64,000 nt of DNA from Thermaerobacter subterraneus DSM 13965. GTDB taxonomy: Bacteria; Bacillota; Sulfobacillia; Thermaerobacterales; Thermaerobacteraceae. Within the stretch, counting starts at the first letter, position 1, and the number at the start of each line of letters is the position of its first letter. Positions 2,618-9,008 of this stretch are shown here, in pieces. The notes below the pieces were generated by a model that saw nothing but the letters and a program-made list of their open reading frames with translations, was not told where the DNA came from and searched no databases. The stretch lies in NCBI RefSeq assembly GCF_000183545.2, contig NZ_JH976535.1, forward strand, positions 2,047,837-2,111,836, given 5' to 3'. A program made the position numbers and the translations under genes.

Positions 2618-4786
2618 TCACTGCCGAGCCGGAGCCGGCACCGCCTCCGCCTGGGCGTAACTGCGCTTCAGCTCCTCATCCGGCAGGAAGAACAGGCAGA
2701 AGAGCCCCATCACCGCCATGGCCGCCGTGTAGAGGTACACCTGTCGCAGGGCCTCGGTGACAGCTTGGTTGAAGGCGTTGCGGAAGGTGGCCACCGCCTG
2801 GTCCACCTGCTGCTCCATGGCCCGGCGGATCTGGGCGATGGCCTGTTCTTCCGCCTGGGCTGCCATGGCGTCCACCCGGCCGTCCAGCGCCTGCTCCGCT
2901 GCCGCCAGGGCCGCCTGGCGCACCGCCGGCTCGGCCGGCGGGTGCTCCACCAGCTGGCGCAGGGAAGCGGGCAGCGCCGGGTTGGCCAGCAGGGCCTGCC
3001 GGGCCTGCTCGTCCCCCTGGAGAGCCGCCGCCAGGGCCGCCTTGAGGCCCGCCACCTGCTGGCGCACCTGGGCGCGCACGCCGCCCTCGGGCAGCTTTTC
3101 CTTGAGCGCCGCGGGCACCCGCGGGTCGGCCTGCAGCCGCGCGTAGGCCTGTTCGTCCCCGCGCAGCGCCTTCTCCACGTCGGCCAGCACCGCCTCGAAC
3201 CCCTGGCGCACCCGGGCCGCCAGGTCCGTCCCGCCCGTCATGCCCTCGGCGGGCATCTGGATCGACTGGGTCGCCGCCTGGTAGGCTGGCGGCAGGTGCC
3301 GGATCATCCCGTCGTGAAGGGCGCCGCTGAGCACCGTGCCGAGCAAGGCCACGGCCACTGTGGACCCCACCTGGCGGAAGAACTGGGTCGCGCTGCTGGC
3401 GGTGCCGAGGCGCTCCCTGGAGACGCTGTTCTGCACGGCCATGCCGTAGAGGGGCATGGACGGGCCGAAGACGAAGCCCAGGAGGACCATCAGCACCAGC
3501 ACCTGCCAGAGGGGCGTGTCGACCCGCAGCACCTCGTGGAAGACCAGGAACAGCGCCACCGAGCCCACGGAACTCACCAGCAGCATGGGCTTGTAGCGCC
3601 CGTACCGGGTGGCCAGTTGGCCTGCCAGCAGGCTGCCGGCCATGGTGCCGAAGGTCAGGGGCGTCAGGGCCAGGCCCGAGTTGGAGGCCGAAAAACCCTT
3701 GACCTGCACCAGGTAGAGGGGCAGGAACATCACGCTGCCCAGGAAGGTGCCGCCGAAGAAGAGCAGGGCCAGCACCGACCAGCGGAAGGTGGGGTTGGCG
3801 AACAGGGTCAGGTCGAACAGCGGCTGCGGGCTGCGCCGCTCGACGGCGATGAACAGGCCGAGACCCACCGCCGCCAGCGCCAGGAGCCCGACGATGACCG
3901 GCGAGCTCCACGGGTAGGTCGAACCGCCCCAGGCACAGGCCAGGATCAGCGGCACCGTCCACAGGGCCATGGTCACCGCGCCCGGCAGGTCGAAGGCCGA
4001 CCGCCGCACGGGCGGCAGCAGCGGCATGTGCCGCAGCAGGAAGTAGAGGGCCACGATGCCGACGGGCATGTTGACGTAGAAGACCCAGCGCCAGTTGATG
4101 TGGTCGGTCAGAAGGCCGCCCACCCAGGGGCCGATCACGCTGGACAGCCCGAAGACGGCAGCAAAGACGCCCTGGACCCGGCCGCGCTCCCGGGGCGGGT
4201 AGAGCAGGCCGATGGTGGTGATGGACGTGGCGAAGAGGCCCCCGCCGCCGATGCCCTGGAAGGCGCGGAAGGCGATCAGGGCGTCCATGCTGGGCGAGAG
4301 GCCGCACAGGGCCGAGCCGGCCAGGAACAGGCTGGCCGCCGTGGTGAACACCCACTTGCCCGGCAGGAGCTCGTTGAGGCGGCCGAAGATGGGCAGGGCC
4401 ACCACGGTGGCCAGCAGGTAGGCCGTGGCCACCCAGGCGTAGCGGTCCAGGCCGTGGAGTTCCTCCACCACCCGGGGCATGGCCGTGGCCACGATGGTCT
4501 GGTCCAGGGCGCCCAGGAACATGGACAGCAGCACGCCGATCATCGCCAGGCGCCGCTCGCCCGGACGGTAGCCGGCCGGCGCCGCGCCGGCCTCAGCCAC
4601 CCCTCCGGCCTGAGCCGCCCCTCCGGCCGCGGTGCCGGCCCACGCGCCGGCACCGGGCGCCGAGGCCGGTTCCGCGCCGGGGGACGCCGCCGTGGACGGC
4701 GACCCCCCTCCCGACCGGCCGGGGGTGCCCGCCCCGGGCCGGCCGCGGGCTACGGTCTCACGGGTCATGGGGTTGCGTTCCTTCAC
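2618..4786 (-). CDS. DHA2-type MFS multidrug exporter with a large extracytoplasmic insert
   Basis: A 722-residue EmrB/QacA-like drug:H+ antiporter. The family motif LDQTIVATAMPRVVEEL begins at residue 94, and 14 membrane segments are expected between residues 80 and 700. Residues 1-75 are Ala/Gly/Pro-rich. Residues 490-680, between the last two membrane helices, form a mostly helical charged insert that contains a duplicated unit (about 539-567 and 587-615). Start is GTG 4786 with AAGGAG nine bases upstream; ATG 4768 is an alternative. It overlaps the end of the MarR gene by 29 bp, so the regulator is probably co-transcribed and controls it. Confidence 0.9.
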   Translation of the reverse strand: MKERNPMTRETVARGRPGAGTPGRSGGGSPSTAASPGAEPASAPGAGAWAGTAAGGAAQAGGVAEAGAAPAGYRPGERRLAMIGVLLSMFLGALDQTIVATAMPRVVEELHGLDRYAWVATAYLLATVVALPIFGRLNELLPGKWVFTTAASLFLAGSALCGLSPSMDALIAFRAFQGIGGGGLFATSITTIGLLYPPRERGRVQGVFAAVFGLSSVIGPWVGGLLTDHINWRWVFYVNMPVGIVALYFLLRHMPLLPPVRRSAFDLPGAVTMALWTVPLILACAWGGSTYPWSSPVIVGLLALAAVGLGLFIAVERRSPQPLFDLTLFANPTFRWSVLALLFFGGTFLGSVMFLPLYLVQVKGFSASNSGLALTPLTFGTMAGSLLAGQLATRYGRYKPMLLVSSVGSVALFLVFHEVLRVDTPLWQVLVLMVLLGFVFGPSMPLYGMAVQNSVSRERLGTASSATQFFRQVGSTVAVALLGTVLSGALHDGMIRHLPPAYQAATQSIQMPAEGMTGGTDLAARVRQGFEAVLADVEKALRGDEQAYARLQADPRVPAALKEKLPEGGVRAQVRQQVAGLKAALAAALQGDEQARQALLANPALPASLRQLVEHPPAEPAVRQAALAAAEQALDGRVDAMAAQAEEQAIAQIRRAMEQQVDQAVATFRNAFNQAVTEALRQVYLYTAAMAVMGLFCLFFLPDEELKRSYAQAEAVPAPARQ

Positions 4787-5231
4787 CGGACACCGCTCCT
4801 TCGCGTTCCGCCGATCCTCCCGGGAGATCCTCGTGCAGGCGCGCCAGCAGCCGGGCCAGCAGGTCCCGTTCCTCGGGAGCCAGGCCCTCCAGTCGCCGGT
4901 TGACGGCCTCTTCCAGGCAGGCGCGGGCCGCCCGCAGGGCCTCCTGCCCCTCCGGGGTCAGGGCCAGCCGGTAGCGCCGCAGGTCCTGGGGATCGACCTG
5001 GCGCCTCACCCAGCCCTCGGCCTCCAGGCGCCGCAGGATGTGGCTGGCGGTCGGAGCCGGCACGCCCATGGCCGAGGCAACGCCGGAGGGCGTGCCGCAG
5101 CGCCGCACCATGGCCAGGGCGAAGGACGCCATGCGGAAGAGGCCGTGCCGCTCCAGGCAGGGCGTGGCCTCCCGCAGGACGACCTGCTGCAGGCGCCAGA
5201 TGTGCTGAAGGATCTCCCAACCGTTCATCAT
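4758..5231 (-). CDS. MarR family transcriptional regulator
   Basis: A 157-residue winged-helix regulator. The HTH and wing occupy about residues 46-95 (VASAMGVPAPTASHILRRLE, then a wing with DPQDLRRY), flanked by the helices that dimerise in MarR proteins. It lies directly upstream of and overlaps the MFS exporter gene, the classical repressor-exporter arrangement, so it probably responds to a toxic small molecule. The start ATGATG (5231 or 5228) lies only four bases after a good -10 box and has no Shine-Dalgarno, so the transcript looks leaderless. The frame is open upstream to 5474, but that part lies outside the promoter. Confidence 0.9.
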   Translation of the reverse strand: MMNGWEILQHIWRLQQVVLREATPCLERHGLFRMASFALAMVRRCGTPSGVASAMGVPAPTASHILRRLEAEGWVRRQVDPQDLRRYRLALTPEGQEALRAARACLEEAVNRRLEGLAPEERDLLARLLARLHEDLPGGSAEREGAVSGEGTQPHDP

Positions 5232-5400: not shown

Positions 5401-6765
5401 CTAGGACTGCCCGCCGCCCGCCCCGCCGGCCAGCCAGGACCGGGCCTCCCGCAAGAGCCGCAGCCGCTCGGCATAGGGCACCGTGCTGCGGCCCGACGGG
5501 TTGGGCGCGACGAACTCGGCCACCCCGGGCACCGTCTGGCGCGGCTGCAGGCCCCATTCCACGGGCGCCGTGCGGGCCAGCCCGGCGTAGGCCCGGTAGA
5601 CCTGCTTGCCCAGGAGGATCACCAGCCGCGGCCGGAAGCGGGCCACCTTCTCCCGCAGGGCGGCACCGCCCGCGCGGAGTTCGTCCCAGGTCAAATCGGC
5701 CTCCCCCCGGGTGGCCCGGGGCACCACGTTGGTCACCCCCAGCCCCCACCGGGGCAGCAGCCCGTCCTCTTCAGGCCGCAGGACCCGCGGCACGAAGCCC
5801 GCCTCGTGCAGCAGGCGCCAGAACAGGTTGTTGGGCCCGGCGAAGTGGTGGCCGGCGGTGGCGCTGGCCCGCCCCGGGTTGAGCCCGACGAACACGGCCC
5901 CAAGCCCCGGCGCCAGCACGTCGGGGACCTGCATGCGCTCCCAGTGGAGCGCCCGCAGTTCTTGCAACACGGGCATGGCCTCGAGATCCTCGGGGGTCAC
6001 CGCCTCCCAGCGGATGCCCCGCGGCTTGGGGTAGGGGGTGCGGGTGAAGATCACCTCGTCGGGGGTGACGATGATGTCCACCGAAAGGTCGTGGGGCGCC
6101 ACGGGCAGCCGCTCCACGATCTGCAGGGGGTGGACCGTGGTCACCACGGGCAGTTCGGGATGCCCGAGCTCCCGCAGGAGGGCGTACTCGTAGTCCGCAT
6201 AGCCCTCCCCCTTCCCCGCCCGGGCCCCGTCCCGGGTGACGGCGACGGCGCCGGCCACCACCAGATCGATGGGCGCCGCCTCCGGAGTCATCTCGTCCAG
6301 GGTGACGAACCGGCCGTACTCCGCAGCCCTGCCCAGCTGGGCCGCGCGCCGCTCCTCGCCGCGGGGGACGTCTTCGGGCCGGATGCGCAGGAAGGCCCCG
6401 CGGAGGCGCGGCGTGGGCATGTACACGGTCTTGCCGTCGGCCAGGGCCATGGCCCGGACGGGCAGCTGGGGCGTGTCGGGGTTGACCTTCAGGGCCCGGG
6501 CGCGGCGGTAGACGTCCAGCTCCCGCAGCCGGGCCGCCGCCCGCTCGGCGCCTTTGAAGTTGGGGATGCGGCCTTCGATGGGAAAGGGGAAGCGGGCAGC
6601 ACCGGCCTCCCGCAGCCGCCGGTACACCTCTTGACGGGCCGCTGCCTTGGCGGCGCCGGCCTCGCTGGCAGAGCCGGCCTCGCTGGCGGATCCGGCCTCC
6701 CAGGAGTGCCCGGCGCCCGCCGGCGCCCTGCCGCCGCCCTTGCCCTCCCCGGCCGCCGGCTCCAA
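5401..6765 (-). CDS. Fusion of 5-formyltetrahydrofolate cyclo-ligase-like and Mug/TDG-type DNA glycosylase domains
   Basis: About 454 residues in one uninterrupted frame. Residues 40-270 match the MTHFS-like family (COG0212, resembling human MTHFSD), including IPNFKGAE, VNPDTPQLPVR and the phosphate loop GKGEGYADYE (about 184-193). Residues 280-450 match mismatch-specific uracil/thymine glycosylases: motif I GLNPG (about 294-298) and motif II NPSG (about 422-425). The first activity would return 5-formyl-THF to methenyl-THF; the second would excise U or T opposite G. Start is uncertain: TTG 6765 follows GGAGG by nine bases, and GTG 6807 is an alternative. Residues 20-37 hold a short EAGSAS repeat. 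Confidence 0.8.
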   Translation of the reverse strand: MEPAAGEGKGGGRAPAGAGHSWEAGSASEAGSASEAGAAKAAARQEVYRRLREAGAARFPFPIEGRIPNFKGAERAAARLRELDVYRRARALKVNPDTPQLPVRAMALADGKTVYMPTPRLRGAFLRIRPEDVPRGEERRAAQLGRAAEYGRFVTLDEMTPEAAPIDLVVAGAVAVTRDGARAGKGEGYADYEYALLRELGHPELPVVTTVHPLQIVERLPVAPHDLSVDIIVTPDEVIFTRTPYPKPRGIRWEAVTPEDLEAMPVLQELRALHWERMQVPDVLAPGLGAVFVGLNPGRASATAGHHFAGPNNLFWRLLHEAGFVPRVLRPEEDGLLPRWGLGVTNVVPRATRGEADLTWDELRAGGAALREKVARFRPRLVILLGKQVYRAYAGLARTAPVEWGLQPRQTVPGVAEFVAPNPSGRSTVPYAERLRLLREARSWLAGGAGGGQS

Positions 6766-6901
6766 GGCCCTCTCCCTCCATGCGCCATCTTTCGCCACAA
6801 GCTTCACCCGCGCTGGTCCGATCCTGACCCGCTGAGCGGCGCAGGCCCGTACCGGACCGCGGCGGCAGGATATGCCTTCACGTGACTTTTGCTGCAAGGA
6901 C

Positions 6902-6930
6902 TGGTCCCGTTCCTCCAACACTTTTATCAT
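6902..6930 (+). promoter_or_regulatory. Possible hppA promoter
   Basis: TGGTCC (6902-6907) and TATCAT (6925-6930) are separated by 17 bp in an AT-richer stretch upstream of hppA. The -10 box matches 5/6 and the -35 only 3/6. The leader would be about 60 bases and would include the Shine-Dalgarno/hairpin element at 6964-6989. Confidence 0.4.
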
Positions 6931-6963
6931 GTTCATCGGACCGTCAGCATTTGTCGGGGAAAG

Positions 6964-6989
6964 AAAGGAGGGACCCGCCTCACAGCGGG
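6964..6989 (+). promoter_or_regulatory. Shine-Dalgarno followed by a hairpin that bridges to the hppA start
   Basis: A strong ribosome site, AAAGGAGGGA at 6964-6973, lies about 26 bases from ATG 6999, too far for normal initiation. The five-base arms CCCGC (6974-6978) and GCGGG (6985-6989) directly after it can form a GC hairpin with a six-base loop. Folding this hairpin would leave only nine unpaired bases before the ATG, close to ordinary spacing. The bridging role is inferred from the geometry. Confidence 0.5.
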
Positions 6990-6998
6990 GCAAAGCAC

Positions 6999-9008
<2,010 letters not shown>

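Follow-up and report, generated by a model that had tools for sequence, protein, structure and literature searches.

5-Formyltetrahydrofolate cyclo-ligase (5-FCL, EC 6.3.3.2; equivalog model TIGR02727; solved structures 2jcb and 3hy4) performs ring closure on an N-formyl amine. Its COG0212 paralogues, which coexist with the true enzyme, share the motifs RIPNFKGA, NPDxPQ, GKGxGYxD and TTVH. The title of a 2011 study by Pribat et al. is said to place COG0212 in all domains of life. That study is cited for COG0212 in PMC4120688 and PMC5041015, and PMC4120688 terms the biochemical function of the family unknown. According to a table in PMC3223725, the COG0212 member At1g76730 has no detectable 5-FCL activity, cannot replace 5-FCL and is tied to thiamine salvage. 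Mug/TDG proteins (UDG family 2; 1mug, 2rba) are DNA glycosylases characterized by a motif-1 Asn and an NPSG motif.

Here, we describe a gene from a 64,000-nucleotide stretch of Thermaerobacter subterraneus DSM 13965 DNA (hereafter, the window), the product of which joins members of these two families. Both families are known; the conserved COG0212-Mug pairing is genuine, and no published account or earlier description of it was found in the literature searched, in line with an earlier note on this DNA that had considered the pairing undescribed.

Gene structure and domain composition

The gene is a single open frame on the minus strand (6765 to 5401, stop at 5401-5403) encoding one protein. 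The start at 6765 is a TTG with GGAGG just 5' of it. In-frame GTG codons at 6798 and 6807 are alternative start candidates; in the closest relative (genome G002, 97% identity), the TTG is absent and the equivalents of both GTGs are retained. The domain search proposed in the earlier note placed PF01812 (5-FTHF cyclo-ligase-like; 92.2 bits, Pfam cut-off 27) at residues 46-240 and PF03167 (75.8 bits, cut-off 24.3) at residues 287-450 of a 459-residue translation, in this order and joined directly, which confirms the uninterrupted two-domain frame described there. The motifs GKGEGYADYE, GLNPG and NPSG were all found in the fused protein. Coordinates are given in Table 1.

Table 1. Features of the fused gene and of its neighbours (window coordinates)
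Feature	Position	Strand	Basis
Fused CDS, 454 aa from TTG 6765	5401..6765	-	Full-length in 15 genomes
GGAGG, candidate ribosome-binding site of the TTG start	6775..6779	-	Sequence
N-terminal domain, residues 38-240, assigned as COG0212 paralogue of 5-formyl-THF cyclo-ligase	6046..6654	-	PF01812, TIGR02727 score, tree, 2jcb match
GKGEGYADYE loop, residues 184-193 (canonical enzymes: GxGxGYYDR or GxGxGFYDR)	6187..6216	-	Alignments
COG0212 C-terminal tail, continuing into the joint, residues 241-278 (standalone copies end with the same tail)	5932..6045	-	Alignments
Predicted Mug/TDG-type mismatch uracil/thymine DNA glycosylase domain, residues 279-450	5416..5931	-	PF03167, PRK10201 121 bits, 1mug match
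GLNPG motif 1, catalytic-position Asn296	5872..5886	-	Asn invariant, 8/8 aligned fusions
NPSG motif 2 (NPSxRST among fusions)	5491..5502	-	Alignments
MarR-type regulator, downstream neighbour, outside the fusion	4758..5228	-	Pfam MarR
DHA2/EmrB-type MFS efflux pump, downstream neighbour, outside the fusion	2618..4786	-	
Membrane pyrophosphatase, divergent neighbour, outside the fusion	6882..9008 (listed ORF)	+	

An AlphaFold model of the fused protein, computed from the window sequence and 12 relatives, had a mean pLDDT of 83.7 and a pTM of 0.65, with an unreliable placing of the two domains relative to each other. Model residues 34-241 matched Bacillus anthracis 5-FCL (2jcb) with Z 16.7, and residues 279-447 matched E. 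coli Mug (1mug) with Z 24.1, 2.0 Å and 39% identity.

No folate or dTMP genes adjoin the fused gene. The divergent pyrophosphatase gene probably starts near 7000, inside its listed frame. The efflux pump carries a C-terminal extension of ~200 residues past its matched MFS domain.

The N-terminal half is assigned to the COG0212 paralogues

Against TIGR02727, which models true 5-FCL, the N-terminal half scored 33 bits (cut-off 84.9), and 0 of the 15 full-length fused proteins exceeded the cut-off. A separate protein passing this model was present in 13 of the 15 fusion genomes, including that of the window (G000:C1:1550753-1551331, L038:1468-2178; 122.8 bits). The branch of the latter protein is very long (3.65 changes per column), and its N-terminal third is diverged, TIGR02727 being matched only from position 42. 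In the tree, fused and standalone COG0212 copies split from true 5-FCL with an SH-aLRT of 100.

Alignment showed that the N-terminal half shares with true enzymes, besides the fold, the N-terminal KxxxR, the loop Arg, the Gly residues and the Asp; ATP, Mg or folate binding roles of the aligned residues are presumed here from MTHFS structures. It differs from them in three respects. The second Tyr of YYD/FYD is replaced by Ala, Ser or Gly in fusions, giving a GKGxGY[ASG]D loop; an Asp stands at the position aligned with a Glu of the true enzymes, which we take to be a substrate-site residue; and a segment ending in RIPNF is added. Both the motifs and the clade of the non-5-FCL COG0212 paralogues are matched, the motifs being common to this half and to standalone archaeal and bacterial copies. 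Coexistence with a true 5-FCL is a further likeness to these paralogues. The C-terminal Mug domain distinguishes the fused protein from the standalone ones, and thiamin genes, seen beside two standalone copies, do not adjoin it. At1g76730 was compared through shared COG0212 membership.

Judged by sequence, the N-terminal half is thus a COG0212 paralogue and not a canonical 5-FCL, and is probably not itself a folate enzyme. The domain had been described in the earlier note as a COG0212-like 5-formyl-THF cyclo-ligase with an intact phosphate loop; the family assignment and the intactness of the loop hold, but the domain does not group with the true enzyme and the loop is of the paralogue type, GKGxGYAD, rather than GxGxGYYD.

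Several standalone COG0212 copies (L106:6908-7651, L107:6935-7705, L108:6908-7744, L109:6908-7738 and 4009-4746) are named 5-formyltetrahydrofolate cyclo-ligase in public records. They scored ≤39 bits on TIGR02727, less than the cut-off of 84.9, indicating that this naming is a systematic misannotation; on the paralogue profile, the plasmid copies reached 183-231 bits.

The C-terminal half is a predicted Mug-type glycosylase

The best solved match of the C-terminal half was E. coli Mug (1mug, 7.5e-30), and its UDG fold is nearest to Mug/TDG. The score on the PRK10201 equivalog (121.4 bits) was below the cut-off of 144; we therefore label it Mug-type, not proven Mug. Motif 1 reads GLNPG or GINPG in fusions, always with the Asn in the eight aligned, and an NPSG-type motif 2 is present. 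Compared with known Mug/TDG proteins, the half is fused to COG0212 and has NPSxRST in place of NPSGLSR, a replacement that unfused same-class relatives show as well. By its motifs and fold, it is a complete-looking Mug-type (UDG family 2) glycosylase, as had been proposed from the two motifs.

The window's genome encodes two more UDG-superfamily proteins, one clearly of family 4 (188 versus 125 bits) and one weaker match, presumably of family 5. Consequently, the fused copy is not the sole uracil glycosylase of this genome.

Distribution and age of the fusion

The fusion was searched for in the window's class, its phylum and a second class. It was found in frame in 15 genomes as a full-length gene and in one more as a contig-edge copy, covering seven families (f1, f2, f44, f140, f148, f166 and f170) of two classes. 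Its occurrence is patchy, with 7 full-length copies and 1 cut copy in 154 genomes of the window's class and 8 copies in 73 genomes of the second class. Identity is 84-97% in three congeners and, across both halves, 59-68% in distant relatives, a match far beyond chance. A survey for the same domain order had been suggested earlier, and the order proved identical in all relatives found. No fusion was detected in 396 genomes of Actinomycetota, though standalone COG0212 occurs there, and the plasmids searched gave single-domain matches only.

All 16 aligned joints were in frame. At residue 279, just 6 of them had an ATG, five of these belonging to the window's family; several lacked any nearby start codon, and none was conserved at the joint. 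The joint comes straight after a DLxxMPxLxEL tail, which also terminates standalone COG0212 copies, with almost no linker. The in-frame joints without a conserved start codon rule out a frameshift or two-gene artefact: across the 16 joints, we found neither a frameshift nor a split into two genes with a ribosome site between them, the two observations listed in the earlier note as speaking against its own reading.

All fused N-terminal halves fall into a single clade (SH-aLRT 96), and the fused Mug halves likewise group together in one (support 94). In close pairs, dN/dS was about 0.06-0.18 for the N-terminal half and about 0.11-0.26 for the Mug half, indicating purifying selection on both. 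This is a real, old fusion of single origin, with both halves under purifying selection. Within the window's class, nothing but the fused copy matched either half at E 1e-8 in the seven genomes with a full-length fusion; both domains are also encoded separately in many genomes of this class. Among unfused proteins, a standalone Mug of the second class (genome G538, L082:1480-2094) is the closest sister to the fused Mug halves; it may mark the lineage from which the fusion was donated, or a split that came later.

No neighbourhood was conserved across genera: beyond the fused gene, the loci had in common only a generic ABC ATPase cluster and, in sets of two or three, a few genes. A role in anti-phage defence was also considered and was rejected, there being no PADLOC match; the sole match in PHROGs was a Mug-like family of unknown function.

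Thiamin context of COG0212 genes

In one genome of the window's class (G064), a standalone COG0212 gene (locus L101) lies divergently beside genes for an ABC ATPase and a substrate-binding protein (span L101:3994-7742). The substrate-binding protein belongs to the NMT1/THI5 family (214.5 bits), and its best solved match is 3ix1 (E 2.4e-64), the binding protein of N-formyl-4-amino-5-aminomethyl-2-methylpyrimidine (FAMP); the transporter is thus ThiY-like. On a Roseicitreum plasmid, a standalone COG0212 gene and a LysR gene adjoin thiD-thiO-thiS-thiG-thiE-thiF-substrate-binding protein-tenA, a thi operon bearing a TPP riboswitch. Rhodobacterales plasmids share a cassette of a LysR regulator, COG0212 and a BMP-family ABC transporter (L107:5726-12452, L108:5830-12871, L109:5829-12946), which in L108 abuts a thi operon.

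Clear thiamin context was seen at just two standalone COG0212 loci among those annotated or searched. A role of the COG0212 family in thiamin-pyrimidine metabolism is supported, but indirectly. At the fused loci examined, neither thi genes nor a TPP riboswitch were found near the fused genes. Of 16 genomes searched, among them 15 that carry the fusion, only 11 had a full-length ThiE. Together with the lack of a conserved neighbourhood, this suggests that the thiamin role may not extend to the fused branch. The window's genome has two ThiE (thiamin phosphate synthase) genes over the curated cut-off (G000:C1:630739-631314 and 659954-660529).

Discussion

We favour, with moderate confidence, an old and stable in-frame fusion of a thiamin-pyrimidine-associated, ATP-dependent COG0212 enzyme with an intact Mug-type glycosylase, the halves most likely working separately in one chain. 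Two genes would have merged once, in frame, long ago. The N-terminal half would have kept the fold and most loop residues of ATP/Mg type and changed its substrate pocket, a change pointing to a probable ATP-dependent reaction with a different metabolite, pyrimidine-like and N-formylated, with the substrate most likely to lie within thiamin-pyrimidine salvage. In this GC-rich genome, the Mug half would be expected to act on mispairs with G, excising uracil, thymine or related bases, and the two probably act side by side as separate enzymes.

The earlier note had put forward another explanation, in which the N-terminal half has the activity of 5-formyl-THF cyclo-ligase and its fusion to Mug ties the one-carbon balance of folate, and so dTMP supply, to uracil removal from DNA. 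The 5-FCL Pfam family and fold and the retained ATP/Mg-type loop residues are what such an enzyme should have; however, the half falls under the TIGR02727 cut-off, as do all 15 fusions, and sits in its own clade, a separate true 5-FCL exists in 13 of the 15 carriers, the substrate-site-aligned Glu is replaced by Asp, the second Tyr of YYD is lost, and folate or dTMP genes do not adjoin. Moreover, the table in PMC3223725 reports At1g76730, of the same COG, as lacking 5-FCL activity. We consider this folate link most unlikely and do not retain it. A passive fusion, in which a chance intergenic deletion joined unrelated enzymes that were retained because both were useful, would leave the joint functionally meaningless. 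We regard this as possible though unlikely. The fused loci share no neighbourhood, each domain also occurs by itself in numerous same-class genomes, and the almost linkerless joint simply continues the usual COG0212 tail, all of which a passive event would explain; yet none of the 15 full-length copies, in seven families, is broken or re-split, and at E 1e-8 the seven same-class carriers have no other homologue of either half. These two observations suggest some benefit of the fusion, without proving it.

A closer cooperation between the halves can also be envisaged, in which the COG0212 half would apply ATP-dependent formyl or ring-closing chemistry to a pyrimidine that is damaged or modified (a free base, a nucleotide, a residue in DNA or a formylated ring-opened lesion) and that the glycosylase finds or releases. 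The N-formyl amine grouping handled by 5-FCL would also occur in formamidopyrimidine lesions and in FAMP, and a FAMP-type transporter adjoins one standalone COG0212 gene. However, among the loci examined, standalone COG0212 was near thiamin genes twice and near a glycosylase never, and such a two-step repair enzyme appears very unlikely to us. If it were true, the protein would be a new kind of base-damage enzyme acting in two steps, and would reveal the missing COG0212 substrate.

The preferred reading, that of separate enzymes in one chain, carries a caution for annotation, as Pfam names alone misleadingly suggest a link between folate and DNA. For the COG0212 family, the ThiY-like transporter beside the standalone gene in L101 is a concrete substrate hint. 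The fused protein, at 454 residues, offers a practical handle for assays, and the physical tie of COG0212 to a DNA glycosylase for odd pyrimidines provides an independent clue to the substrate of COG0212.
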